DNA from: Thermus scotoductus DSM 8553
GTDB taxonomy: Bacteria; Deinococcota; Deinococci; Deinococcales; Thermaceae
Direction of reading: 5' to 3'
Length of the DNA stretch: 50,321 bases
Assembly: GCF_000381045.1 (NCBI RefSeq)
Contig: NZ_KB905742.1
Coordinates: 1 to 50,321, forward strand
A program made the position numbers and the translations under genes. Each line of letters starts with the position of its first letter. The first letter of the stretch is position 1. Positions 340-25,124 of this stretch are shown one piece after another. The notes beneath the pieces are model-generated. The model did not search any database and was not told the origin of the DNA. It saw nothing but the letters and a program-made list of their open reading frames with translations.

Positions 340-1209
340 CTACCGCCCCAGGGTGAGAAGGGCCAGGAGGAAGCCCGCGCCGTAGCCCACCGCTAGGGCT
401 AGCCGCAAGGCCTGGTGGGTAGTCTTGGGCGTGGGGGAGGGGGCAGAGGCGTTTAAGGCGTAGGCTCCCCGCTTACGCAGGCGCACCCCTAGCCTCAAGG
501 CCAAGGCGGCCATGGGGAAGCCGGCATTGGGGGAAAGCGTCTTCCTGGCTTCCTGGAGGAGCCTGGGCCAGAGCCGGGGAGGGCAAAGGAGAAGGCCCGT
601 GATCCGGGCCGGGACCAGGTTTAAAAGGTCGTCGGCCCGGGCGGCAAACGCTCCCCTCCTTCCGTGCTCGAGGTAGCCCCACATGGCATCGGCGGTGTTG
701 GCGTACCGGTACAGGGCGGCTCCGGCCAGCCCCAAGAGGGCGTAATAGAGGAGAGGGGCGATGACGCTATCGGAAAGGTTCTCCCCAAGGCTTTCCAAGG
801 CGGCTTCCCGAACCTCCTCTGGGGAAAGGTCTTCTGTGGGGCGGCTCACGATCCGGGCTAGGCGCCGCCGGGCTTCTGCAAGGGAATCCGGCCCCTGCAG
901 AGGCCCATAGGACAGGGCTTCCTCCACCCTACCCACCTCCCAAAGGAGCATCCTCAAGCTGAAGAGGGGCTTGAGGAAAAGCCCCAGAAGAAGCCAGCCC
1001 CAGGCCAAGGGCCTGAGGATCAGGTCCAGGAAAAGGGCGGGGAGGGTGAAGAGGAGGGCCCCCAGGGTCCAGTAGAAGGCCCCCGTCCAGAAACCCCGCA
1101 CCTGGGGCCAGGCCCAGGCCAGGTACCGGCCCATGAGGACCACGGGGTGGAACCGGGCAGGGGGTTCCCCAAAGAGGAAGTCCAAGAGAAGAGCCAGAAG
1201 GAGGCTCAC
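340..1209 (-). CDS. cbiB: Adenosylcobinamide-phosphate synthase (CbiB/CobD family)
   Basis: Inner-membrane enzyme that joins adenosylcobyric acid to the aminopropanol (phosphate) side chain in late cobalamin synthesis. The 289-residue protein starts with a hydrophobic segment followed by the family motif [20 protein letters not shown] and has several more hydrophobic stretches. A conserved internal region ([20 protein letters not shown], then [12 protein letters not shown]) is intact. The length is slightly short for the family. The ATG overlaps the stop of the upstream cobC by 4 nt, so the two are probably translationally coupled. The name cobD is used elsewhere for this enzyme and must not be confused with the aminotransferase remnant at 5974-6745. 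Confidence 0.93.
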
Positions 1210-1724
1210 GGGTTTGGAATCAAGCGGTCCAGGACCCGCTTAGGCCAGTCCAGAACCACGGCGCTTCCTGGCTGGACAAGGCCGTCCTCCCCTAAGGCCC
1301 TTAGGGCCGCCCGGATCACCCCTCCGTGGGTGAAGAGGACCGCAGGGGCCTTGATCGCCTCCAGGAAGCGGAGGACCCGCTCCTGGAAGGCCTCGAGGCT
1401 CTCCCCTCCTGGGGGGGCAAAGCCCTGGAAGCGCAGGAGGGCTTCCTGGTAGGCGGGGTCCAGCTCCTGCCAGAGGGCTCCTTCCAGAAGGCCGAAGTGG
1501 ATTTCCCTTAAGGCGAAGACGGGTTGGGGCTGAAACCCCGCCAGTTCCGCCGTCCTTTGGGCCCGAAGCAGGTCGGAGCTGAAGGCGGGAAGCCCCGGCA
1601 GAACCCCTCGGAGGGCCTTGGCCTGGGCCTCCCCCAGGGGGGTGAGGGGGAGGTCGGTCCAGCCCAAGAGGCGGCCTTCCCGGTTCCAAAGGGTTTCCCC
1701 GTGGCGCACCAGCCATAGCTCCAT
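1206..1724 (-). CDS. cobC: Histidine phosphatase, probable alpha-ribazole phosphatase CobC
   Basis: Cytoplasmic phosphatase expected to remove phosphate from alpha-ribazole 5'-phosphate or adenosylcobalamin phosphate. The 172-residue protein opens with the phosphohistidine motif LVRHGET and has the second catalytic histidine in FTHGGVIRA near residue 135. The assignment to cobalamin rather than to general phosphoglycerate mutase-like activity rests on position: it overlaps cbiB by 4 nt and is divergent from cobT across 25 bp. The family is functionally broad, so the substrate is inferred. Confidence 0.8.
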
Positions 1725-1749: not shown

Positions 1750-2763
1750 ATGGGATACCAGGAGGTTCTGCAGGCGGCAAGGGAGCGCATGGAACGGCTC
1801 ACCAAGCCCCCTAGGTCCCTGGGCCACCTGGAGGAGGTGGCGGTGCGGCTTGCTGCCATCCAGGGAAGGCTGAAACCGGAACTGGGCCTGGGGGCGGTGG
1901 TGGTGGCTGCTGCAGACCACGGGGTGGTGGCGGAAGGGGTTTCCGCCTACCCCCAGGAGGTCACCTACCAGATGGTGCTGAACTTCCTTCGGGGTGGGGC
2001 CGCCATCAACCAGCTGGCGCAGGTGGCAGGCGCCAGGGTGTACGTGTTGGACGTGGGGGTAAAGGGGGACCTGCCCCAGCACCCGGGGCTTCTAAAGCGC
2101 AAGGTGCGCCCGGGCACGGGGAATCTGGCCCGGGAGGCGGCCATGACCCTGGAGGAGGCGGAAAAGGCCCTTCTGGCGGGCCAGGAGGCAGCCCGCATTG
2201 CCATCGCTCAAGGGGCCACCCTTCTTGCGGCTGGGGATATGGGCATCGGCAACACCACGGCGGCCAGCGCCCTAACCGCCGCGCTTCTTGGCCTTTCCCC
2301 GGAAAGGGTGGTGGGCCCGGGCACCGGGGTGGGAGAGGAGGGCCTTAGGCGGAAACGGGAGGCGGTGGCCCAGGCCCTAAGCCGCCTGCGCCCCGGTGAG
2401 CATCCCCTGGAGGTGGCGGCGGAGGTGGGGGGTTTGGAGCTTGTGGCCATCGCCGGGGTCTACCTGGAGGGGTACCGTCAGGGTTTGCCCTTGGTTTTGG
2501 ACGGTTTTCCCGTTTCCGCTGGGGCCCTTCTGGCCTACCGGTTGGAGCCAGGGCTTAAGGAGTACCTCTTCGCGGGCCACCTCTCCCGGGAGCCTGGGCA
2601 CCGGTACATCCTCGAGGCCCTGGGCCTAAGGCCCCTCCTGGACCTCCACCTGGCCCTGGGGGAAGGGACGGGGGCAGTGCTGGCCATGCCCCTCCTCAGG
2701 GCTGCGGCCCGCATCCTGCACATGGCCACCTTTGAGGAGGCGGGGGTTTCCGACCGCCAGTAG
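1750..2763 (+). CDS. cobT: Nicotinate-nucleotide--dimethylbenzimidazole phosphoribosyltransferase
   Basis: Transfers phosphoribose from nicotinate mononucleotide to dimethylbenzimidazole, giving alpha-ribazole phosphate for the lower ligand of cobalamin. The 337-residue product has the family landmarks [10 protein letters not shown] near the start, the [20 protein letters not shown] segment, [14 protein letters not shown], and near the C-terminus the [16 protein letters not shown] segment with the catalytic glutamate region. The frame is open further upstream, but that stretch overlaps cobC. The ATG at 1750 follows a good -10 box and gives the normal family N-terminus. It is followed 3 nt later by cobS. 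Confidence 0.95.
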
Positions 2764-2766
2764 TCC

Positions 2767-3462
2767 ATGCGCCCCTTGCGCCTGGCCCTAGGCCTTCTCA
2801 CCATCTTCCCCTTGGCTCCCAAGGAGGCCACCCCGGAGGATTTCCGAAGGAGTACCCTTTTCTTCCCCCTGGCGGGTTATGCCCTGGGGCTTCCCCTCAT
2901 GCTCCTGTCCTTACTTCCCCTTCCCGATGGGCTTTTGGCTGCCCTGCTTCTGGCTTTCCTCCTGGGCCTTACGGGGTTTTTGCACCTGGATGGGCTTTTG
3001 GATCTGGCCGATGCCCTTTTGGGCGCAAGGCCCAAAGAGGAGCGGCTTCGCATCCTCAAGGATCCTCACCTGGGCCCCTTTGCCTTCGGGGTGGGAGGGG
3101 TTTACCTTCTTCTTCTTTGGCAGGCCTTGGCCTTGGCGAGGGAACCCCTTTTCCTCCTCCTCCTGCCCGGCTTTGCCCGCTTTGCCGTCCTCCCCTTTTT
3201 AAACCGCTACCCCCTCCTGCATTCGGGAATGGCGGGTCTCATCCGGGGAGGTCCCTGGGGAGGCGCTTTCCTTCTGGCCCTGCCCTTTCCCCTCCTTTAC
3301 CCTTGGCCTGCCCTCCTGGTTTTCCTGGCCGCCTATGGGGTGGCCCGCTTGGCGGTGGCCCGCCTGGGGGGGCTAAACGGGGATGTCCTGGGGGCCATGA
3401 TCGCCTTGGGGGAGCTTTCGGGACTGGTAGGCTATGCCTTATGGAAAGCCCTAAGCGGGTGA
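2767..3462 (+). CDS. cobS: Adenosylcobinamide-GDP ribazoletransferase
   Basis: Integral membrane enzyme that condenses adenosylcobinamide-GDP with alpha-ribazole (phosphate), the last assembly step of the nucleotide loop. The 231-residue protein is mostly hydrophobic with about six membrane segments. It shows the CobS hallmarks GLLTIFPL near the N-terminus and [15 protein letters not shown] followed by R and K residues and [10 protein letters not shown] near residues 60-105, where acidic residues bind metal. It lies 3 nt after cobT, and its stop codon overlaps a GTG of cobO, so cobT-cobS-cobO form one transcription unit. Confidence 0.94.
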
Positions 3463-4004
3463 AGCCGTACGCCAGGCCCACGGAAAAGAGACGGGGCCTC
3501 CTTCTGGTCTACACCGGGGAGGGCAAGGGGAAAAGCACCGCCGCCTTTGGCCTGGCCCTTCGGGCCCATGGCCGGGGCCTGAAGGTGAGGATCTTCCAGT
3601 TCATCAAGCACCAGACGGCCCGCTTCGGGGAGCACCGGGCCTTTGCGACCCTGGGGATTCCCGTGGAGGGATTGGGGGATGGCTTCACTTGGAAAAGCCG
3701 CGACCTTTTGGCTTCGGCCCGGTTGGCCTACGAGGGATGGGGGCGGGCCAAGGAAGCCATCCTCTCCGGCGCTTACCATCTGGTGGTCCTGGACGAGGCC
3801 ATCTACCCTTTGCGCTACGGCTGGATTCCTTTGGAGGAGTTCCTTGAGGTCTTAAGGGTGCGTCCCGAGCACGTGCACGTGGTGGTGACGGGGCGGGATG
3901 CTCCCGAGGAGCTTTTGCACCTAGCGGACACGGTCACGGAGATGCGCAAGGTGAAGCACGCCTTTGACCAGGGGATCCCGGCCCAGGCGGGAATGGAGCA
4001 CTAA
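3441..4004 (+). CDS. cobO: Cob(I)yrinic acid a,c-diamide adenosyltransferase (CobO/BtuR type)
   Basis: Attaches the 5'-deoxyadenosyl group of ATP to the cobalt of corrinoids. The protein is 187 residues from ATG 3441. It has the P-loop variant [19 protein letters not shown] near residues 24-42, the motif FQFIKHQ, and the acidic [15 protein letters not shown] segment, all typical of the CobA/CobO/BtuR fold. A GTG at 3459 overlaps the cobS stop as GTGA and would give 181 residues. That coupled start is equally credible and I cannot decide between them. The gene is convergent with and overlaps the cobQ-cobU fusion by 4 nt. Confidence 0.93.
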
Positions 4005-5977
4005 AGCCTTAGAGCCCGGCCCGCCACCAGGAGGTAGACCTCCTCTGCCTCCCGGGCGAAGAGGGCGTTCACCTCCCCCAAAAGGTCCCGGTAGCGGCGG
4101 GCCAAGGGATGGGCGGGAACGATCCCCATGCCCACCTCGTTGCTGACGGCGATGACCCGCTTGCCGCTATGGGGGAGGGCCTCGTTGCTTCGCGGAGCGA
4201 ACAATGCCTCAAGGAACCGCTTGGCCTCCTCCAGGGGGTCCAGGCCCTTTTCCAGGAGGTTGGAGACCCATAGGGTCAGGCAGTCCACCACCACCGTGGG
4301 GTAGCGGGCCTTTGTTAAGGCTCCCGCCAGGTCCAAAGGCTCCTCCAGGATCTCCCAGGTGGGGGGGCGTTCGGCCCGGTGGCGGGCGATTCTTTCCGCC
4401 ATTTCCTCATCCCGGGCCTCGGCGGTGGCGATGAGGGTGGCGAAGGGCCCCGCTAGGTTCTGGGCGTGGCGGCTTTTGCCGCTTTTCGCCCCACCCAGGA
4501 GAAGGACCAAGCCGGGGCGAGGGTCATGCGGATCGGGACTCCGGCTCGCTAAGGGGCCTTGTGGGGGATCCGGGCTTTGCGGCATGGAGGGCAGGGGTTT
4601 TGCCTTGCCAAAAAGCCCTAGGGCGCGGTGGAGGGCCTTCAGGTCCAGATGGCGCTCCAGGGCGTCCGCCAGTTCCTGCAAGGCCTCCTCGAGGCCTCTG
4701 GCCTCCCGGCCGAAGAGGGCCCGTTGCACCCCGGGGTTTTCCAGAAGGCCATGGAGCCAGGTGGCGAGGAGGGAGCCTTCCTGGTGCAGAAGGGGGAGGC
4801 CCTGGCCATGGTGGATCTCGTAGCCCTCCACCTGGAGGCCGTTTAAGCTACCCCAAAAGCCCGTCAGTCCCTCCAGTCTTACCCGCCGGCCGAAAACGGT
4901 CTTGGCCTTTTCCATGCGCACCTGGAAGGGAAGGAGGCCGAGGCCTGGGAAAAGGCCCCTCTTTTCCACTCCCTCCTCGTCCAAAATAGGCTCCGAGAGC
5001 ATCTCCGCCCCGCCGCAGACCGCCAGCACCGGCTTGTTTTGGGCCAGGTGGTTTTGGATCAGGGACAGGAAGTCTCTAAGCCAAGGGAGGTCTTCGCTGG
5101 GGAGGCGGCTTCCCGGAAGGATGAGGAGCCAGGCCCCTTCCGCCTCCTTGGGGGTGCGGGCATGGACCAGGTGGGCGAGCTCGCTCAAGGGCCAAAACTC
5201 GTCCAGGTTGGAGGCATAGGGGTAGCGAAGGACGGCCACCTTGGGGCCCGGGCCAGGCCTAGGGCGATGGCGGAACCCATCTTCCTCGGGAAGCTCCAGC
5301 CCCAGCATGGGCAGGGTGCCCAGTACCGGGACCCCAGTCCAGTCCTGGAGGAGGCGGTAGGCGGGTTTTAGAAGTTCCAGATCCCCCCGGAACTTGTTGA
5401 GGATAAACCCCACCAGCCTTGGCCTGTGCTCCCCCAGAAGGGCCCAGGTGCCGTAGAGGGCGGCCAGGGAGCCACCTTGGTCCACATCCGCCACCAGGAG
5501 GGCCTTGGCCTTTGCCCACTCGGCCACCTTCAGGTTGGGGAGATCGGGCCAGAGATTCCGCTCCACGGGGCTTCCCGCCCCCTCGATCACCACCAGTTCG
5601 TAATCTTGAAGAAGCCCCGCCAAAGCTTCCTGCACCACGCCATCCAGGTGGGCCCGCCGCTCGGCCCAGGAAAGCCGCGAAAGTTCCGGGCTAACCTGGC
5701 CCAGGAGGATCACCTGGGAGGCCCGTTCCCCCATGGGTTTTAGGAGAACCGGGTTCATGCGGGGCTCGGGAGGGACACCCGCCGCCTGGGCCTGGACCCA
5801 CTGGGCGCTGGCCATCTCGCCCCCCGCCACCGCCCGGGCGTGGTTGGACATGTTCTGGGCCTTGAAGGGAGCCACCCTAAGGCCCAGGCGGCGGAAATGC
5901 CGAAGGAGCCCGGCGGTGAGGAAGCTTTTCCCCACCCCGCTTCCCGTGCCCCAGATGACGAGCGCCTTGGCCTTCAC
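4001..5977 (-). CDS. cobQ: Fused cobyric acid synthase (CobQ) and adenosylcobinamide kinase/guanylyltransferase (CobU)
   Basis: One 658-residue frame carries two enzymes. Residues 1 to about 455 are CobQ: an N-terminal ATP-binding domain ([17 protein letters not shown], then [10 protein letters not shown]) and a glutamine amidotransferase domain with the nucleophile in VCGGAEML and a late histidine in [10 protein letters not shown]. It would amidate four side chains of adenosylcobyrinate diamide. A proline-rich linker follows. Residues 489-658 are CobU, with the P-loop [11 protein letters not shown], the [14 protein letters not shown] segment and [12 protein letters not shown]. About ten extra residues ([10 protein letters not shown] region) sit before that last motif and are encoded around a small palindrome at 4189-4201. 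The start is the GTG at 5977, overlapping the upstream stop as GTGA. The longer upstream frame is not CobQ-like. Confidence 0.9.
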
Positions 5978-6745
5978 CGGGAAACCCCTTTCGTCTTGGC
6001 CAGAACCTGGGCCAAAGCCTCCAGGAGGGCCCCTATGACTTCCTCCCGCCCGGCGGAAAGCCTTAGCCACTCCGGCAGGCCGAAGCTGGTGGCGTCCCGC
6101 ACCCGGATGCCCTTCTCCCTGAGGGCCCTGGCCACCTCCGTGGCCCGGCCCACCCGTACCAGCAGGAAGTTGGCGGGACTTTCCCGCACCTCGAGGCCCA
6201 ACTCCCTAAGCCCCTGGGCCAGAAGTCCCCTCAGGCGGTGAAGCTCTTTACGGGTGCTTTCCAGCCAGGCCTGGGCCCTGGGGTCCAGTTGCCTCTCCAA
6301 AAGCCCTTCCCCGTACACGGATACGGGCCAGGAGGGGGCCAGGTTCTGGAAAACCGTGAGGTCCAAGGGAGCCACCAGGTACCCGGCCCGCACCCCCGTA
6401 AGGCCGTGGGCCTTGTTGGGGCTATAGAGGAGCCAAGCCCCTTGGGGTAGGGAAGGGGGCGTTTCCATTAGGGGGAAGTAGGCCAGGTCCAGCACCAAGG
6501 CTCCTCCCGCCCGCCTCACCGCCTCCTCCAGGAAGGGGTAGACCTCCCCCGTGGGGTTATTGGGGAGGCAGAGGAAGGCTATGGAGCTTCGTGGCAAGAG
6601 CCTTAGGGCTAGGGTCCTTGGCCTGGATGTGCTCGAGGACCACGGGATTAGGCCCCAAGGCGTTGGCGTTGGTGGAGAAGTCGTATAAGGGCTCAGGGCC
6701 CCCGTCGGGACCTCCGTGGATGGGCCTCAGGACATCGTCCAACAT
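5974..6745 (-). pseudogene. cobD: Broken L-threonine-O-3-phosphate decarboxylase-like aminotransferase
   Basis: The intact enzyme makes aminopropanol phosphate for the cobalamin side chain. The first about 45 codons (6745 downward) read as a normal class I aminotransferase N-terminus, with YDFSTNANALGPNP. The rest, from about 6615 downward, is in another frame and begins in the middle of the fold (FLCLPNNPTGEV). It then carries the PLP-lysine segment SPNKAHGLTGVRAGYL and a normal C-terminus. Roughly 70-90 residues are missing at the junction, so an internal deletion with a frameshift is the simplest reading. The downstream fragment alone (TTG 6597) lacks the N-terminal part of the fold. A sequencing or assembly error is possible. 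Confidence 0.75.
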
Positions 6746-7623: not shown

Positions 7624-9294
7624 TCAGCTCTCGCAGGCCCGGCAGGAAAGGAGGAGGTCCCGGCTGTAAGCTTGGGCCGCACTGGCGCTGAACTGGTAGT
7701 AAAGGGCCTTGAGCCCGCCCCTCCAGGCGTGCAGGTACAGCTCGTTCACGTCCTTGGGCGGGGCCTCAGGGTGGATCACCAGGTTCAGGGACTGGCCCTG
7801 GTCGATGTACTTCTGCCGGGCGATGGCCAGGTTGACCAGGGTCTTTTGGGAAATCTCGGAAAAGGTCTTGAACACGTCCTTCTCCTCGTCGGAAAGGAAG
7901 TCTAGGTGCTGTACCGAGCCATTCCTCTCCAGGATGCTCCGCCACACTTTTTCCTCGTTCTTTCCCTTTGCTTGGAGAAGCTCCTCCAAAAAGGGACTCC
8001 TGAAGGCGATTCGGGCCTTTTGCAGGTCCTTGAGGTAGTAGTTGCTGGTGTAGGGCTCGATGGAGGGGGAAACCTGCCCCAGGATGAAGGAGCTGCTCTT
8101 GGTGGGGGCGATGGCCAGGAGGGTGGCGTTGCGCCTTTCCATGACCTCGGCCAGCTCGTCCTCAGGGTGCCGCTTCCTGAGCCAGCGGCTAGCTTCCTCC
8201 GCTTTCTCCCTTATGGTCTTGAACACCAGGCCGTTGAGGAAGATCGCCTCGGCGCTCTCCAGGGGTATCCCCTGGGACTGCAGGTAGCTGTGCCAGCCCA
8301 AGACCCCGATGCCGATGGCCCTATAGCGCTTGGCGAAGCGCACCGCCCGCTCCATGTAGGGGATGCCCTCCGCCTTCTCGATGAAGTCGTCCAGCACCGA
8401 ATCCAGGAAGATGGTCAAGGTTTCCACGGCGTCGGTGTCCTTCCACTCGTCAAAGTGGAGGAGGTTTAAGGAGGAAAGGCAGCAGACAAAGCTTTCATCG
8501 GGTCCTGAGGGGAGCATGATCTCGGTGCACAGGTTGGAGGCGTGGATGGTTTTCCCCAACTTCTTGAAGATCTCCGGAGCCTGGCGGTTGGCGTTGTCCC
8601 GGAAGAAGAGGTAGGGGATGCCCACTTCGGCCCGGCTCTTCAGCACCTGGGCCCATCTTTCCCGCTTCCTTTTATCCCCTCCTATCATCTCCTCCATCCA
8701 GGCATCCCCCACGGTGACCCCAAAGAAGAGGGACTGGATCTCGCTCCCCTCCCGCTGGATCTTGAGCCACTCCTCAAAGTCGGGGTGCTCTATGGGGATG
8801 TAGGCGGCGCACTGCCCCCGGCGGGTGGAACCCTGGTTGAACACCTCGATCACCCGGTCGAAGAGAGAAGCAAAGGCGTAGGAACCATTGCTTTCCCCGT
8901 TGTCCCGGATGGGGGCTCCCCTGGGGCGAAGGGCCCCCAGGTAAACCGAGGTGCCCCCACCCTGTTTGCTCATCATGCCGATCTCCGCCACCGCCCTCAG
9001 GATGGAGGCGGTGTCGTCTTCCACGTAGGTGCCGTAGCAGGAGATGGGGAGACCCCGCTTGAGGCCGTAGTTGGCCCAGATGGGGGTGGCCAAGGAGTAC
9101 CAACCCTTGGCCATGTACTCCTGGAACTTGCGGGAGAAGCCCTCGATGCGGGTCAGGGCCTCCGCCCGGTCGGCGATTTCCTTCACCCTCTTCTCCACCG
9201 TCACCCCAGGGAGAAGGTAGCCCCGGCTCATGTAGAGGCGGGTCCACTCGTTGGCCCAGTACCACGGTTTGTACTCCCTTTTGGTCTTTAGCAT
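7624..9294 (-). CDS. nrdA: Ribonucleoside-diphosphate reductase class I, alpha subunit
   Basis: Catalytic subunit that reduces ribonucleotides to deoxyribonucleotides using the radical supplied by NrdB. The 556-residue protein is compact and starts directly with the catalytic domain, without an ATP-cone, so activity control by ATP/dATP at that domain is not expected. Active-site landmarks are PISCYG near residue 86 (first redox cysteine), NLCTEIML with the thiyl-radical cysteine, GTSVYLGALRPRG, and the C-terminal shuttle pair CRACES (Cys551 and Cys554). It lies 14 nt behind nrdB with a purine-rich ribosome binding site, as last gene of the riboswitch-led operon starting near 13280. It is B12-independent, unlike class II reductases. 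Confidence 0.93.
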   Translation of the reverse strand: MLKTKREYKPWYWANEWTRLYMSRGYLLPGVTVEKRVKEIADRAEALTRIEGFSRKFQEYMAKGWYSLATPIWANYGLKRGLPISCYGTYVEDDTASILRAVAEIGMMSKQGGGTSVYLGALRPRGAPIRDNGESNGSYAFASLFDRVIEVFNQGSTRRGQCAAYIPIEHPDFEEWLKIQREGSEIQSLFFGVTVGDAWMEEMIGGDKRKRERWAQVLKSRAEVGIPYLFFRDNANRQAPEIFKKLGKTIHASNLCTEIMLPSGPDESFVCCLSSLNLLHFDEWKDTDAVETLTIFLDSVLDDFIEKAEGIPYMERAVRFAKRYRAIGIGVLGWHSYLQSQGIPLESAEAIFLNGLVFKTIREKAEEASRWLRKRHPEDELAEVMERRNATLLAIAPTKSSSFILGQVSPSIEPYTSNYYLKDLQKARIAFRSPFLEELLQAKGKNEEKVWRSILERNGSVQHLDFLSDEEKDVFKTFSEISQKTLVNLAIARQKYIDQGQSLNLVIHPEAPPKDVNELYLHAWRGGLKALYYQFSASAAQAYSRDLLLSCRACES

Positions 9295-9308
9295 CCTCGT
9301 CCCCCTCT

Positions 9309-10277
9309 TTAGAACAGGCTGTCCGGGTCAAAGCTTTGCACCCTCCTGGCGTAGGCCACGCTCCTTTTGTTGAAGAAGTCCACTTCCTTGTCCGCCAAAA
9401 GCTCTAGGTCAAACCATGCCGTGTCCCTAAGCGCTTCCTCCTTAACAGTGAAGGGTGCGGGGAAGCCGTGGAGGGAAAGGGCTTGGTTGTACCGCCATTT
9501 CAGGAACTCCAAGACCTCATCCCGCCCCACCGCTTCCGTGTCCCCTTTGGCAAACATCCAGTCCAAGAGGGCTTCCTCCACCTGGAAGAAAGCCTGGACC
9601 CGCTTGAGGACCTCCTCGGTGAAGGAGGCATCAAAGAGGTCGGGGCGCTCTTCCTTTAGGATGCGAAGAAGCTCCACCCCGAATAGCCCATGCAGGTTTT
9701 CCTCCTTGCTGGTGGCCTCGATGGCATTGGAGATCCCCTTGAAGCGACCAAGGCGCTTGTTCAGGGCCATAAGCACGTAGAACTGGGAGAAAAGGGAGGC
9801 GTGTTCGGTGAAGGCGGAAAAGAGAAGGAGGCCTTTAGCGTACTCCCTGAGGTCCCCCTTTCCCGAGCGGGCCAAGACCTGGGAAAGCTCCTTTTGCCTA
9901 TCCCTTAGGGCTGGCTCCTCGAGGGCCTGGGCGAAGCGCTCTTCCAGGGAGAGGAGGTCCAGGAGGTGGGCGTAGGCGTTGGCATGCCGCACCTCGCTTT
10001 CCGCAAAGGTCATGCCCACCTCGGCGATCTCGGGCTTGGGGAAAACCTCGTAGGCTTTGGCCCAGAAGAGCTTCACGGAAAGCTCCACCTGGGAGATGGC
10101 AAGAAGGGAGCGCTCCACCAACGAGCGCACCTCAGGATCCGCCAGGGCGTAGTCCTGGACGTCTGCCGCATAGCTGAACTCCGTGTGGAGCCAGTAGCTG
10201 TGCCGGATGGCGTCCCGGTAGGCCAGGAGCTTTGGGTACTGGTAGGGCCGGTAGTGGGGTCTAGGTTCGGTGAGCAT
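9309..10277 (-). CDS. nrdB: Ribonucleoside-diphosphate reductase class I, beta subunit
   Basis: Radical-generating di-metal subunit of class I ribonucleotide reductase, 322 residues from the ATG at 10277. That start has a perfect AGGAGGT ribosome binding site 5 nt upstream. The longer frame to 10301 does not. Metal-ligand segments are visible: QVELS, EVRHANAYAHLL, FTEHASLF and EENLH. By alignment to E. coli, EVRHANAY keeps the ligand Glu and His and places a tyrosine at the radical position. The first ligand is Glu (QVELS) where E. coli has Asp. The metal type cannot be read from sequence. The start overlaps the end of metE. Confidence 0.92.
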   Translation of the reverse strand: MLTEPRPHYRPYQYPKLLAYRDAIRHSYWLHTEFSYAADVQDYALADPEVRSLVERSLLAISQVELSVKLFWAKAYEVFPKPEIAEVGMTFAESEVRHANAYAHLLDLLSLEERFAQALEEPALRDRQKELSQVLARSGKGDLREYAKGLLLFSAFTEHASLFSQFYVLMALNKRLGRFKGISNAIEATSKEENLHGLFGVELLRILKEERPDLFDASFTEEVLKRVQAFFQVEEALLDWMFAKGDTEAVGRDEVLEFLKWRYNQALSLHGFPAPFTVKEEALRDTAWFDLELLADKEVDFFNKRSVAYARRVQSFDPDSLF

Positions 10278-12504
10278 GGCCACCTCCTGGGGATTTTCCA
10301 CCTAGGGCTTGGCGAAGCCGCTTGGCGGCCTCCACCATGTTCCTGAGGTTCGAGATGGCCTCCTGGGGTTTACGGGTTTTTAGACCGCAGTCGGGGTTTA
10401 CCCACAAGGAGGCCGGGGAAAAGAAGTTGAGATAGCCCTGGAGGCGGGTGAGCATCTCCTCCACCGTGGCTTCCTCTGGCGTGTGCACATCAAATACCCC
10501 GGGCCCGATCTCTAGGGGAAGGTCCTTAAGGCTTTGGAGGAAGGCTGGGTCCTGCCGGGCTCCTTCCACGCTCACCACGTCGGGGTCCATGGCCTCCAGG
10601 AAAGGCCTTAAGGCGGCGTAATCGGAGTAGCAGAGGTGCTGGTGCACCTGTACCTTGGGTTCCAGATCGCCCACCACCCGATGGAAGGCCTCCTGGGCAA
10701 GTTTTAGGTAGCTGGGCTGCTCTTCCCGCCTGAGGGGCATTTTTTCCAGAAGGGCTGGCTCGTCCACCTGGACAAAGCGGATTCCACGGGCGGCCAGGTC
10801 CCGCACCTCCTGCCTTAGGGCCTCGGCCAGGGCCATGACCGCCTCAGGGAAGCTAACCCCTTCCGGCAGGTAGCTCCAGGCGGCCAGGGTGATGGGGCCG
10901 GTTAGGATGGCCTTCACGGGCTTGGCGGTTAGGCTTTGGGCGTAGAGGGTTTCCCGAAGCACCAGGGGTTCTTGGCGCCGGGGAGGGGCAAAGAGGATGG
11001 GAGGGCGCCAGACCCGGCTTCCGTAGGAAAGGACGAAACCCTTCTGGGTGATGAAAAAGCCCTGTAGGCGTTCGGCGAAGAACTCCACCATGTCGCTTCG
11101 TTCGGGTTCCCCGTGGACCAGGACGTCCAGGCCCAGCTCCTCCTGCAACCGGATGTTTTCCTCGATGGCTTTTTTGATGTTCTCCCAGTAGGCGGCCTGG
11201 TCCAGCTCCCCTGAGCGCAGGCGCCTCCTAAGTTCCCTGAGCTTCCCCGTCTGGGGGAAGCTGCCGATGGTGGTGGTGGGGAAGGGGGGGAGGCCGAGGT
11301 CTTGCTGGGCCTGGCGCCGCACCTCCAGGGGGGGCCTAGGGGGAGGTGGGGGAGAAGGGTGGAGCTCCCAGGCGGGAGGCGGGGTGTACCAGGCCCTGGC
11401 GGCTTGGTATGCCCTTGAGGGCGAGGTGGCCGCCTCGAGGTGGCCTGCTGGGCCTTGCCCATCCGTCAAGAGCTCTTTGAGGAGGGAAAGTTCCTGTAGC
11501 CTTTCCACGGCAAAGGCAAGCCGGCCCTCGAGGGCCTTGGGCAAGGGCTCATCCACCCGCCAGGGCAGATGGAAAAGGGGTGCCTTAGGGGCCAGCCAGA
11601 CCTCCTGCCCCTCTAGCAGGGGCAGGATCCCTCCTAGGGCCAGGAGATGGGTTCGCCACACGCCTTGCCCCTCCACCACCCCTAGGACCAGGGCCATTCC
11701 TGGGGGTAGCTTGGGCAGGGCTTCCCCTACCGGGAAGACCCCAAGGCCCCGCAAGGGAAGGTTGGCCAGGCTCCGAACCACCTCCGAAGCCGGGGGCAGG
11801 TAGTAGCTGAGAAGGACCAACGGTACCCTCTTTGCCAAGGCGGCATAGGCTTTCAGGAGGTGGGGTAGGTCCCGTTCCACCCCATCCAACCCCAGGGCCG
11901 GTTCTTGGAGGAGGAAGAGGGTGCCGGCAAAAGGCTCAAGAAGCTCCGCATAGGCCTCCACCAGGGCCTCGAGGTGGTCCTCCACCCTCTCGGGGGGGTT
12001 TTGCGCCAGGCGCAGAAGGGTGTAGGGACCGAGCAGGGTGGGAAGGCCTTCCGCCGAGCCTGGGGTTTTTTGGCCAACAGGATAGGGGAAAAAGCCCCGC
12101 CTGGGGGTGTAGCGGGGTTTTTCCGGAAGCCGGGGGACCAGGTAGTGGTAGTTGGTGCCAAACCACTTCCTAAGGGGAAGGGCCCCCTTGCCCCGGGCCA
12201 GGGCGTAATAGCCTTCCAGGTCAAAAGGTTCCACGGGGTAGACCCCAAGGGCCACCGCCAGGTCCAGCATGGGGTCGTACAGGCTGAGCTCCCCTGCTGG
12301 ATAAAGGTCCACGTGTTCCCGATAGGTGGCCATCCTGAGACCCTCGAGGTCCTCGAGGGCCTGGAGGAACTCCTCCCTCGGCAAGGAGCCCTGCCAGTAG
12401 GCTTCCAGAAGCCGCTTGTACTCCCGGTTAGGGCCCAGCCGGGGAAGGCCAAAAGCCAGGGTCCGGATGTTGCCTTCTAAAGACGCATGGAATTTTTCCC
12501 GCAT
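10261..12504 (-). CDS. metE: Cobalamin-independent methionine synthase
   Basis: Transfers a methyl group from methyltetrahydrofolate polyglutamate to homocysteine without B12. The 747-residue length is normal. The N-terminal half is more divergent. The C-terminal catalytic half begins around LPPFPTTTIGSFPQT and has the zinc ligands in VHQHLCYSD (His and Cys) and in NPDCGLKTR (Cys), together with FVQVDEPALLEK and VSVEGARQD. It is second in the operon behind the thioesterase and overlaps nrdB by 17 nt. The cobalamin riboswitch far upstream explains its regulation: repressed when B12 is available. Confidence 0.96.
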   Translation of the reverse strand: MREKFHASLEGNIRTLAFGLPRLGPNREYKRLLEAYWQGSLPREEFLQALEDLEGLRMATYREHVDLYPAGELSLYDPMLDLAVALGVYPVEPFDLEGYYALARGKGALPLRKWFGTNYHYLVPRLPEKPRYTPRRGFFPYPVGQKTPGSAEGLPTLLGPYTLLRLAQNPPERVEDHLEALVEAYAELLEPFAGTLFLLQEPALGLDGVERDLPHLLKAYAALAKRVPLVLLSYYLPPASEVVRSLANLPLRGLGVFPVGEALPKLPPGMALVLGVVEGQGVWRTHLLALGGILPLLEGQEVWLAPKAPLFHLPWRVDEPLPKALEGRLAFAVERLQELSLLKELLTDGQGPAGHLEAATSPSRAYQAARAWYTPPPAWELHPSPPPPPRPPLEVRRQAQQDLGLPPFPTTTIGSFPQTGKLRELRRRLRSGELDQAAYWENIKKAIEENIRLQEELGLDVLVHGEPERSDMVEFFAERLQGFFITQKGFVLSYGSRVWRPPILFAPPRRQEPLVLRETLYAQSLTAKPVKAILTGPITLAAWSYLPEGVSFPEAVMALAEALRQEVRDLAARGIRFVQVDEPALLEKMPLRREEQPSYLKLAQEAFHRVVGDLEPKVQVHQHLCYSDYAALRPFLEAMDPDVVSVEGARQDPAFLQSLKDLPLEIGPGVFDVHTPEEATVEEMLTRLQGYLNFFSPASLWVNPDCGLKTRKPQEAISNLRNMVEAAKRLRQALGGKSPGGGHAHRT

Positions 12505-12552
12505 CGCTTACCTCAACTTTCCCATGACCAGGGTAGGGTGGCCCACTGGGAG

Positions 12553-12927
12553 TTAGGAAAGAGGGGGAACGGAAACCGGCCGCCCCACCTCGTCCACCGC
12601 CACCAGCACAAATCCGCCCTTAGCTGCCAGGTAGGGTTCCCTACCCACCTCTATGGGCTCCACCCACATCTCCACCTCCACCCGCATGGAGGTGCGGCCC
12701 ACCTCTATTACCCGGGCTACAAGCTCCACGATGGAGCCCAGGGGCACGGGGCGCTTGAAGTCCACCGCATCCGAGTGCACCGTCACCACCTTGCGCCTGG
12801 CGTGGCGGGTTGCGGCCACGAAGGCTGCCTGGTCCATCCAGGCCATGGCGGTGCCGCCAAAAAGGGTCCCGTAATGGTTGGTTTCCCCAGGGAAAACCGG
12901 GTAGACCATGCGCGTTTCCTTCACCAC
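12553..12927 (-). CDS. Hotdog-fold acyl-CoA thioesterase
   Basis: Probable acyl-CoA hydrolase of the YciA/BFIT type, 124 residues, a single hotdog domain. The conserved N-terminal motif FPGETNHYGTLFGGTAMAWM is present, followed by VVTVHSDAVDFKRPVPLGS and RTSMRVEVEMW. Two adjacent GTG codons (12927 and 12924) lie 6-9 nt after a GGAGGT ribosome binding site. An ATG at 12909 is also possible but has a weaker site. It is the first gene behind the cobalamin riboswitch and precedes metE by 48 bp. Why a thioesterase would belong with B12-independent enzymes is not evident. The natural substrate is unknown. Confidence 0.85.
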   Translation of the reverse strand: MVKETRMVYPVFPGETNHYGTLFGGTAMAWMDQAAFVAATRHARRKVVTVHSDAVDFKRPVPLGSIVELVARVIEVGRTSMRVEVEMWVEPIEVGREPYLAAKGGFVLVAVDEVGRPVSVPPLS

Positions 12928-13128
12928 GGACCTCCAGGGCCGTCTTTGGGCCCGTAAAAGCTAAATCATCCCTTCTACCTGCCCAAGGGGAGTAACCCCG
13001 TGCTGGGCAAGAACTTGCCTAAGGTCGCCTGGCCCAAGGTCCTTGGGCCACCGGGTTTTGGGGGGTTAGGAGTCTAAGGTCCCACAGGCATCACCACCTT
13101 CACCCTTGCCTCGAGGGCTACGGGGTAA
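12928..13128 (-). other. Leader between cobalamin aptamer and thioesterase gene
   Basis: About 200 nt on the minus strand without a gene, the likely expression platform of the riboswitch. Two strong inverted repeats are visible, at 13030-13050 (arms TGGCCCAAGG/CCTTGGGCCA) and 12980-13009 (outer arms TGCCCA/TGGGCA, inner GGGG/CCCC). Neither is followed by a clear T-tract, so I cannot tell termination from translational control. Confidence 0.5.
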
Positions 13129-13253
13129 GGCCGCGAAGCGGGTACTCGGGCTTCCGGACAGAGCCGGTTACCGTTGCGGGACAGCGCCGGACTTGCACCG
13201 GACTTCCCCCACCGCCTGGTGGCGTCCAGGCCTGTCGGCCTGGCATCGCGGCC
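13129..13253 (-). promoter_or_regulatory. Cobalamin (B12) riboswitch aptamer
   Basis: Read on the minus strand, the B12-box core is unmistakable: AGTCCGGTGCAAGTCCGG, then CGCTGTCCCGCAACGGTAA. Further on is GAGTACCCGC, which corresponds to the usual 3' GAGNC...CCGCC part. The closing helix is formed by GGCCGCG (13247-13253) and CGCGGCC (13129-13135). A separate 5' hairpin occupies 13254-13279, starting at the predicted transcription start. Genes downstream on the same strand are thioesterase, metE, nrdB and nrdA. Classic B12 riboswitches shut genes off when adenosylcobalamin is bound, so this operon should be expressed in B12 shortage. Confidence 0.93.
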
Positions 13254-13286
13254 AAGACACCCTAAGTCTTGGGTGTCTTACCAGTG

Positions 13287-17041: not shown

Positions 17042-18355
17042 ATGCTTAGCCTTCCCCGGCTGGTCCTGGGAGCCCCCCATTCGGGGGCAGGGAAGACCAC
17101 GGTGGCCCTAGCCCTTCTTTTGGCCCTGAGGGAACGGGGCCTGAAGGTGCAACCCTTCAAGGTGGGGCCCGACTACGTGGATCCCACCCACCTCGAGGCC
17201 GCTTCGAGGCGCAGGGTGTACAATCTAGACGGCTTTTTCCTGGACCCCTCGGGGCTCCTTTCCCTCTTCCAGCACGGGGCTAAGGGGGCGGACCTGGCCT
17301 TGGTGGAGGGAGTGATGGGTCTATTCGATGGCAAAGACCCCTTGGGAAAGGAGGGCTCCACCGCCCAGGTAGCCAGGCTCTTGCGGGCTCCCGTGGTCCT
17401 GGTGGTGGATGCCTCCGCCATGGCGGGCTCCATCGCCCCTTTGGTCCAGGGTTTTCGCACCTTTGACCCCGCGGTCCAGGTGGTGGGGGTCTTTGCCAAC
17501 CGGGTGGGCTCGGCCCGTCACGCGGAGCTTTTGCGGGAGGCCCTGTCCCAGGTGGGCCTGCCCCTTTTGGGCTGGCTTCCACAGGATCCTAGTTTGGAAG
17601 TCCCCGAGCGCCACCTGGGCCTGGTGCTGGCGGGGGAGGTGCGGCCGCCCCTCGAGGCCCTGGCCCGGGCTCTCCAGGTGGATCTTGAAGGAATCCTGCG
17701 CCTGGCTGCCGCTGCCCCGCCCCTGCCCGAGGCCTTGCCCTTCCTTCCCGATAGGAGGCCTCCCCGGGTCCGGGTGGCCTACGCGTGGGATAAGGCCTTC
17801 CGCTTCTACTACCCTGAGGCCCTGGAGCTTTTGGAGGCCCTGGGGGCTGAACTTGTTCCCTTTAGCCCTTTAGAGGACCCGGCTTTGCCCGAGGCCCAGG
17901 CCCTTCTCCTGGGGGGCGGTTACCCCGAGCTCTACGCCCGGGAGCTTGCGGAAAACCGGGCCATAAGGGAGGCTATCCGCCGTTTTCCCGGCCCCATCGT
18001 GGCCGAGTGCGGGGGGTACATGTACCTCTCCCAGGGGCTTTGGGTGGAGGGAAACGTTTTCCCCATGGTGGGCTTGGTTCCCGGGGAAGCCCGTATGGCC
18101 CAGCATCCGGTGCTGGGCTACCGGGAGGTGGAGGCCTTAAGGGATAACCCCTGGGCGCGAAGGGGGGAGGTGGTTAAGGGGCACGAGTTCCACTATGCCC
18201 GGATGGAGCCTTCTCCGATGGCTGCTTGGCGGCGGCTGGATACGGGGGAGAGGGAGGGCTATACGGATGGGCGGGTGCTGGGGAGTTTTGTCCACCTGTA
18301 CCTGCCGGCCTGGCCTCGAGGGGTTGCGCGCTTTTTGCAGTTTGCAGAAGGTTAG
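17042..18355 (+). CDS. cobB: Cobyrinate a,c-diamide synthase
   Basis: Amidates the a and c side chains of (hydrogeno)cobyrinic acid with glutamine and ATP. The 437-residue protein has the CobB/CbiA layout: P-loop APHSGAGKTTVALALLLAL at the start, FKVGPDYVDPTHLEAAS, an LVEGVMGLFDG motif near residue 90, and a C-terminal glutamine amidotransferase domain with GGGYPELYARELAEN and the nucleophile cysteine in VAECGGYMYLSQGL. It is the only cobalamin gene to the right of the tnpB element, separated from the main cluster by the riboswitch operon and the alkaline phosphatase. It follows the protoglobin by 4 nt. Confidence 0.95.
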   Translation: MLSLPRLVLGAPHSGAGKTTVALALLLALRERGLKVQPFKVGPDYVDPTHLEAASRRRVYNLDGFFLDPSGLLSLFQHGAKGADLALVEGVMGLFDGKDPLGKEGSTAQVARLLRAPVVLVVDASAMAGSIAPLVQGFRTFDPAVQVVGVFANRVGSARHAELLREALSQVGLPLLGWLPQDPSLEVPERHLGLVLAGEVRPPLEALARALQVDLEGILRLAAAAPPLPEALPFLPDRRPPRVRVAYAWDKAFRFYYPEALELLEALGAELVPFSPLEDPALPEAQALLLGGGYPELYARELAENRAIREAIRRFPGPIVAECGGYMYLSQGLWVEGNVFPMVGLVPGEARMAQHPVLGYREVEALRDNPWARRGEVVKGHEFHYARMEPSPMAAWRRLDTGEREGYTDGRVLGSFVHLYLPAWPRGVARFLQFAEG

Positions 18356-24940: not shown

Positions 24941-24949
24941 GGAAGGGAC

Positions 24950-25042
24950 AGGCTAGGGGTGCCCCAATGGAGGGGCTGAGAGCTGGGTTTCTCCCAGCAA
25001 CCCTTAGAACCTGATCCGGGTAATGCCGGCGGAGGGAAGCCT
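24950..25042 (+). promoter_or_regulatory. Thiamine pyrophosphate (THI-box) riboswitch
   Basis: The classic conserved blocks are present in order: AGGGGTGCCC, GGGGCTGAGAG, ACCCTTAGAACCTGATCCGG and GTAATGCCGGCGGAGGGAA. The outer helix can be closed by AGGCT and AGCCT. The following 80 nt contain a pyrimidine-rich stretch (25070-25080) that could pair with the AAGGGGGTG ribosome binding site of thiE, suggesting translational control. The operon downstream is thiE to thiD. Confidence 0.96.
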
Positions 25043-25124
25043 ATGCGGAAGACCCTAATCCCCCAAAACCCCACCTCCTTTGGGCCGCGTGGGCCTTTCC
25101 CGCTGGCCTGAAGGGGGTGAAAGC

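Follow-up and report, generated by a model that had tools for sequence, protein, structure and literature searches.

A CobQ-CobU fusion gene in Thermus scotoductus and its relatives, with a short in-frame insert in the CobU half

In the corrinoid pathway, CobQ yields adenosylcobyric acid and CobU works two steps later, after the arm has been attached, as described in the accessible part of PMC7242693. Several enzymes of cobalamin synthesis are known in joined form. The CobL and CysG fusions appear in the same portion of that paper, and a bluB/cobT fusion appears in the accessible part of PMC8123684. CbiET is annotated as bifunctional in HB8, and NCBIfam contains a model for a CobB-CobC fusion (NF053748). 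CobQ joined with CobU is not mentioned in these portions of PMC7242693 and PMC8123684. Such a fusion was also not announced in the titles and abstract openings of the literature searched, a body of work with subscription journals mostly outside it.

We analyzed a stretch of 50,321 nucleotides from T. scotoductus DSM 8553 (contig NZ_KB905742.1), here called the window. We observed that it encodes CobQ and CobU in one gene, cobQU (Table 1), which places pathway enzymes on one chain in the same way as CbiET/CobL, CysG and bluB-cobT. The two enzymes themselves are known; we did not find their joined form described in the literature searched. The fused protein is already present in public records, where it is named after its first half, and its RefSeq name is only "cobyric acid synthase". 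This annotation could lead to CobU being counted as absent from Thermus, although 24 of 27 Thermus genomes encode it within a full-length fused frame.

Table 1. Positions of cobQU, its parts and neighboring features in the window
Feature	Coordinates	Strand	Remarks
cobQU, fused cobyric acid synthase (CobQ) - adenosylcobinamide kinase/guanylyltransferase (CobU)	4001..5977	-	658 codons, GTG start, TAG stop
CobQ half, residues 1-452	4622..5977	-	P-loop GTGSGVGKS (10-18), glutaminase Cys321, His409
Linker, residues 453-488	4514..4621	-	Pro/Gly-rich; 458-479 predicted disordered, pLDDT <50
Extra linker stretch, 39 bp (13 residues)	4523..4561	-	window copy is the sole carrier among 29
CobU half, residues 489-658	4004..4513	-	P-loop GGAKSGKS, His533, Asp565-Cys566, NEVG 613-616
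27-bp in-frame insert	4179..4205	-	22-bp ATTGTTCGCTCCGCGAAGCAAC plus repeat of the 5-bp site GAGGC
CobD/HisC-like aminotransferase gene, broken, directly upstream of cobQU	5974..6745	-	internal deletion and frame change
btuR-type cob(I)yrinic acid a,c-diamide adenosyltransferase	3459..4004	+	TIGR00708, 193.4 bits (cut-off 167.75)
cobS-like adenosylcobinamide-GDP ribazoletransferase	2767..3462	+	TIGR00317, 92.7 bits, below cut-off 110; cluster-conserved
cobT	1756..2763	+	TIGR03160, 427.3 bits (cut-off 319.3)
cobC-like phosphatase	1206..1724	-	TIGR03162, 103.8 bits, below cut-off 162.9; cluster-conserved
cbiB, membrane enzyme between the CobQ and CobU steps	340..1209	-	TIGR00380, 182.5 bits (cut-off 165.9)
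Cobyrinate a,c-diamide synthase (CbiA/CobB family), step preceding CobQ	17060..18346	+	TIGR00379, 400 bits (cut-off 261.4)
Cobalamin riboswitch	13120-13263	-	RF00174, 42.7 bits
TPP riboswitch	24945-25054	+	RF00059, 82.8 bits

The cobQU frame and its predicted product

Translation of the minus strand across cobQU gave 658 residues closed by the terminal TAG, with no internal stop. The protein opens with a complete CobQ (residues 4-452) and closes with a complete CobU (residues 491-658), and the two are joined by a Pro/Gly-rich linker that is predicted to be disordered. A sequence-only reading of this DNA had placed both enzymes in a single 658-codon frame joined by a proline-rich linker. The open translation and the full domain matches bore out the first point and the linker sequence the second (P 32%, G 14% over 29 copies). 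The GTG start (5977-5975) overlaps the TGA (5976-5974) that closes the upstream frame. This overlap had also been noted and it stands, but what lies upstream is not an intact neighbor; the frame there is left over from the 3' part of a broken CobD/HisC-like gene.

The CobQ half matched the equivalog model NF001989 at 387 bits (cut-off 273) over residues 4-452, which corresponds to model positions 1-478 of 480. It also passed TIGR00313 (311.9 bits, cut-off 309.9), a threshold missed by HB8 (297.1 bits) and by a second fused copy on contig C7 of the same genome (308.6 bits). With known CobQ/CbiP enzymes (NF001989, TIGR00313) it shares the full-length domain, the P-loop and the glutaminase Cys and His. 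Unlike them, the cobQU protein bears a second enzyme at its C-terminus, and in the tree the Thermus CobQ halves are set apart by a long branch of 0.8 changes per column. The P-loop and the glutaminase Cys and His have catalytic roles in this family, and K17, S18, C321 and H409 were conserved without exception in a set of 16 diverse fused proteins.

The CobU half covered the full PF02283 profile (positions 1-168 of 168; residues 491-658) at 170.6 bits against a cut-off of 27, and matched the solved structure 1c9k with an E value of 4.6e-26. It has the full Pfam profile, the P-loop and His533 in common with known CobU/CobP enzymes (PF02283, PRK05800; solved relatives 8yep and 1c9k). It differs from them in being tethered to CobQ, with no free N-terminus, and the window copy has an additional 9-residue insert. 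CobU enzymes act through a guanylylated His; K501, S502 and H533, like the catalytic motifs of both halves listed in Table 1, did not vary in any of the 16 fused proteins. The window copy scored 156.3 bits against PRK05800, below the cut-off of 161, whereas five scanned fused relatives, all without the 9-residue insert, scored 163.5-174.7 bits and passed both NF001989 and PRK05800. The insert may explain why the window copy, alone of the six scanned, falls below this cut-off.

We modeled the cobQU protein with AlphaFold2, using 29 of 35 usable stretches as input and leaving out six CobU-only stretches. The model had a mean pLDDT of 85.4 and showed two folded domains on either side of a disordered linker. 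Confidence was mostly above 90 in the CobQ half. It was lower in the CobU half (block-mean pLDDT 56-88), because only one other alignment row spans CobU.

To compare the junction between the two halves, we aligned 29 copies (27 from Thermus, one from G049 and one from HB8). The sequence-only reading would have been refuted by resequencing that showed one domain ending in a stop and the next starting anew; the junction is free of stops in all 29 copies. The linker occurs in nine lengths (21-36 residues) and the frame is always kept. In ten of the 29 copies, the frame lacks any ATG, GTG or TTG from about residue 440 to residue 494 (numbering of the window copy). Taken together, the nine in-frame linker lengths and the ten junctions lacking a start suggest that a single polypeptide is the likeliest product of cobQU.

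CobQ and CobU might nevertheless be released as separate products, by a translation restart or by a protease cut in the linker. The linker is predicted to be disordered, from which we infer that it would be easily cleaved, and residue 465 of the window copy is encoded by an in-frame ATG. A junction GTG or TTG with an upstream GAGG-type motif was present in 8 of the 29 copies, so that restarts in single species, use of rare starts or proteolysis could yield two products. However, an in-frame junction ATG was found in only 2 of the 29 copies, neither of which has a Shine-Dalgarno-like motif; the window copy is one such case. The ten start-less junctions, along with the differing positions of GTG and TTG, exclude a conserved restart, and the frame is never lost even though linker length varies. 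We consider two separate products very unlikely.

Distribution of the fusion and the second copy

We observed a CobQU match in 25 of 27 Thermus genomes. The full-length fused frame was present in 24 of them, including the source genome, with 27 copies in total. No stand-alone CobQ or CobU matched in any of the 27 genomes; apart from fragmentary pieces, the search gave only three further matches, which were weak (about 21-22 bits) and glutaminase-like. Two genomes (G003 and G020) had no match, and one of these (G020) is 65% complete. In G017, whose coordinates agree with T. parvatiensis plasmid NZ_CP014142, a frame change close to the start of cobQU divides it into two overlapping pieces read in different frames, residues 2-65 and residues 51-657. 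The genus was taken to be Thermus because G007 likewise agrees in coordinates with a T. brockianus plasmid record, as G017 does with that of T. parvatiensis. A genome of a second Thermaceae genus (G049) carries the fusion at 77% identity. The same domain order, which the sequence-only reading had proposed to look for in Thermaceae, is therefore present in both genera.

These comparisons also bear on whether an assembly or sequencing error merged two genes. The source genome is a draft assembly in 84 contigs; we found nothing else that would favor an error. The same join occurs in 24 of 27 Thermus genomes and in the complete plasmid records of HB8 and HB27, and it spans three families. An artefact as the origin of the cobQU join was ruled out by this genome comparison, and we regard its probability as negligible.

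We searched 111 genomes of the phylum and verified candidate fused frames individually by direct translation. In one further family (f4), all 12 genomes having a match were fused. In another (f5), two genomes (G108 and G109) were fused, and the others had weak or partial matches or none. Separate genes were observed in several relatives: cobQ, cobC and cobU are three genes in G028 and G030, cobQ and cobU are split in G050 and G053, and the two genes are 97 bp apart in Deinococcus taeanensis. In five genomes of genus g4 (G032, G034, G039, G040 and G041), cobQ and cobU lie on different contigs. We take genera g2-g4 to be Meiothermus-type, and G050 and G053 to be Deinococcus-type. G028 and G030 were also considered as carriers of a three-domain CobQ-CobC-CobU fusion, which was rejected because direct translation gave stops and three genes.

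When species genomes were scanned with the fused alignment, 7 of the 80 loci listed had a CobU match nearby. Among those 7 loci, one was fused (L143, from a Thermaceae genome) and six had separate genes. The two enzymes had been described as normally separate, and this holds for the checked relatives outside the fused lineages; it fails within Thermus, where the fusion is the rule.

We built a tree for each half from selected loci, dropping rows without a long enough matching segment (58 rows per tree, eight of them flagged as long branches). Three changes between fused and split states were needed in each tree, and at least two were forced by well-supported branches. On these trees, at least two gains or losses of the fusion would be forced. 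The fused Thermus and f4 proteins clustered together with the exception of one long-branch row, with weak support (85/89 for CobQ, 83/76 for CobU). The fused f5 pair was placed elsewhere, and the split CobQ of genera g2-g4 grouped with betaproteobacterial CobQ. Overall, the CobQ-CobU fusion is old, and it is found in Thermus, in G049, in f4 (12 genomes) and in f5 (G108 and G109).

The source genome has two fused copies with 77% identity to each other. The second copy, on contig C7, adjoins an intact CobD-like gene (L041; 311 of 332 aligned, no stop). In both trees, the window copy clustered with the copies of G015, G022 and G023, and the C7 copy paired with that of G004. We compared the window copy with its three nearest relatives and obtained dN/dS values of 0.14-0.18 for CobQ and 0.18-0.31 for CobU. 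Both halves of the window copy are under constraint.

The window copy could be a decaying spare, with the C7 copy doing the work. A second copy at 77% identity exists, the adjoining CobD-like gene upstream of the window copy is broken, and only this copy among the 29 has both the 13-residue linker addition and the 9-residue CobU addition, two in-frame inserts unique to it. Decay of a second copy was observed in G001 (L047 9440-10360), where residues about 100-434 have been lost in frame, so that most of CobQ is gone and CobU is kept; the otherwise invariant Cys of the VVDC motif is a Tyr in that copy. In contrast, the window copy has an intact frame, low dN/dS in both halves and its catalytic residues. 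Copies of the window type are intact in three other genomes, and are the sole copy in G022 and G023. On balance, decay of the window copy seems unlikely.

A 27-bp insert in the CobU half

Rickettsia palindromic elements (RPE) are short repeats that occur in frame inside protein genes, as described in the accessible parts of PMC3733652 and PMC2229807, where one example spans 146 bp. Cyanobacterial small dispersed repeats (SDR) are mentioned in the accessible part of PMC3116915. The 27-bp insert in cobU is likewise short and in frame within a protein gene, and it is much shorter than RPE. SDR are similar to it in size. The insert differs from both in its phylum, in occupying only three genomic places and in having no RNA hairpin beyond that of shuffled sequences. 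An in-frame repeat of this type in Thermus was not found among the papers listed by the literature search.

The nine residues that the insert adds lie where helix 581-593 ends and in the loop preceding strand 607-612, which leads to NEVG. It was absent in the other 28 of the 29 aligned cobQU copies. We observed a second in-frame insert, identical at 25 of 27 bases, in maf (TIGR00172) on contig C24 of the source genome (L061, L112). The maf site was empty in 25 of 25 other Thermus loci among the matches listed. Near-identical copies are thus present at two unrelated sites, each with clean empty sites in relatives.

The core of the insert was also present at two different positions in Thermus Mutator-family transposase genes (PF00872; L060, L069). 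It occurs inside several frames of other Thermaceae, as occurrences of the core that are candidate insertions, and forms a 27-bp tandem array in G027 (Allomeiothermus silvanus by coordinates, C1:2898852-2898978). Allowing at most one mismatch, the core pattern was matched 30 times across 12 of 50 genomes; the backward control gave no match. Most of the Thermus matches were transposase copies. The ...CAAC form of the core had no exact match among the viral contigs searched, and the 91 bases around the insert gave only a weak plasmid match (Sinorhizobium, E 0.7).

We tentatively interpret the insert as a mobile element of about 22 bp with a 5-bp duplication, placed in frame in cobU and maf, at two transposase sites, in frames of other Thermaceae and in tandem arrays. 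It would be an RPE/SDR-like micro-element that invades proteins in Deinococcota and among the smallest known, a reading that we consider plausible and somewhat short of probable. The core is found at only three places in the source genome; a high copy number was not observed. The filled sites in cobU and maf both share GAGGC and the following CCT, and it is possible that the insert was copied from one of these genes to the other. RNA folding of the insert was no better than that of shuffles (z 0.42, 0.15, -0.57 and -0.16). The low number of places, the shared flanks and the missing hairpin signal all weigh against mobility. If the insert is mobile, it is a very small natural protein-insertion element.

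We discounted paired changes in two-mismatch copies as evidence for a hairpin (7 hits compared to 4 in the backward control). The 39-bp linker stretch repeats the SPDP motif of the linker and is probably a partial tandem duplication. A search that allowed three mismatches found its core 26 bp nowhere else in the genome, and the stretch was rejected as a second dispersed repeat for lack of another copy.

Neighboring genes and the late corrinoid pathway

The btuR-type gene is convergent with cobQU, and the stops of the two genes overlap. The broken CobD/HisC-like gene on the other side encodes residues 1-58 in one frame and the rest in another. Its remnant matched TIGR01140 from model position 127 onward (95.6 bits, cut-off 290.55).

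The cobQU gene very probably makes one bifunctional chain for late corrinoid synthesis. The CobQ half is predicted to convert adenosylcobyrinic acid a,c-diamide into adenosylcobyric acid, an amidation that uses ATP and glutamine. CbiB, a membrane protein, would then add the aminopropanol arm. The CobU half is predicted to phosphorylate the arm if needed and to guanylylate it, giving AdoCbi-GDP, and a flexible linker of about 20-35 residues would tether the CobU half throughout. We infer both activities, the presence of a single chain in the cell and any benefit from co-localizing the steps on either side of CbiB or from fixed stoichiometry.

Because CobQ acts before and CobU after attachment of the arm, the fusion brackets the CbiB step. 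The fused halves might dock on either side of CbiB and pass adenosylcobyric acid and AdoCbi-P directly. The halves flank exactly this step, cbiB lies in the same cluster, and the fusion is found in three families. However, related genomes manage without the fusion, and old fusions can persist without channeling. We therefore regard substrate channeling as a speculative possibility and rather doubtful; stoichiometric coupling without it is equally compatible with the data. A fusion that spans a membrane-bound step is a ready model for studying whether late B12 steps are organized in a complex.

We also assessed the earlier steps of the pathway. The source genome had no CbiC match and only a 19-bit match for CbiET. 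CbiC and CbiET were both present in the same 12 of 27 Thermus genomes, and 14 of the 25 Thermus genomes with a CobQU match had no CbiC match and no CbiET match above 34 bits. A CbiA-type match was found in 27 of 27 Thermus genomes, 26 of them over the cut-off. These data suggest that CobQU is often kept where only the late steps are found, which would point to the use of late corrinoid precursors, possibly through a late-only pathway that starts near cobyrinic acid in those 14 genomes. The 14 genomes make life on late corrinoid precursors testable.

Elsewhere in the window, the cobalamin riboswitch heads a minus-strand run (7624-12927) that includes a thioesterase-superfamily gene, a B12-independent metE (NF003556) and two ribonucleotide reductase genes. 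The latter encode NrdE-prime and a beta-like subunit that scored below its cut-off. This riboswitch probably shuts off the B12-independent enzymes when B12 is present. The window also contains a TPP riboswitch (Table 1). In the B12 cluster of HB8 pTT27 (L031 10179-10866), and also at L044 and L045, we observed a HEPN and nucleotidyltransferase gene pair between cbiB and the CobD-like gene, which we take to be a toxin-antitoxin-like layout.
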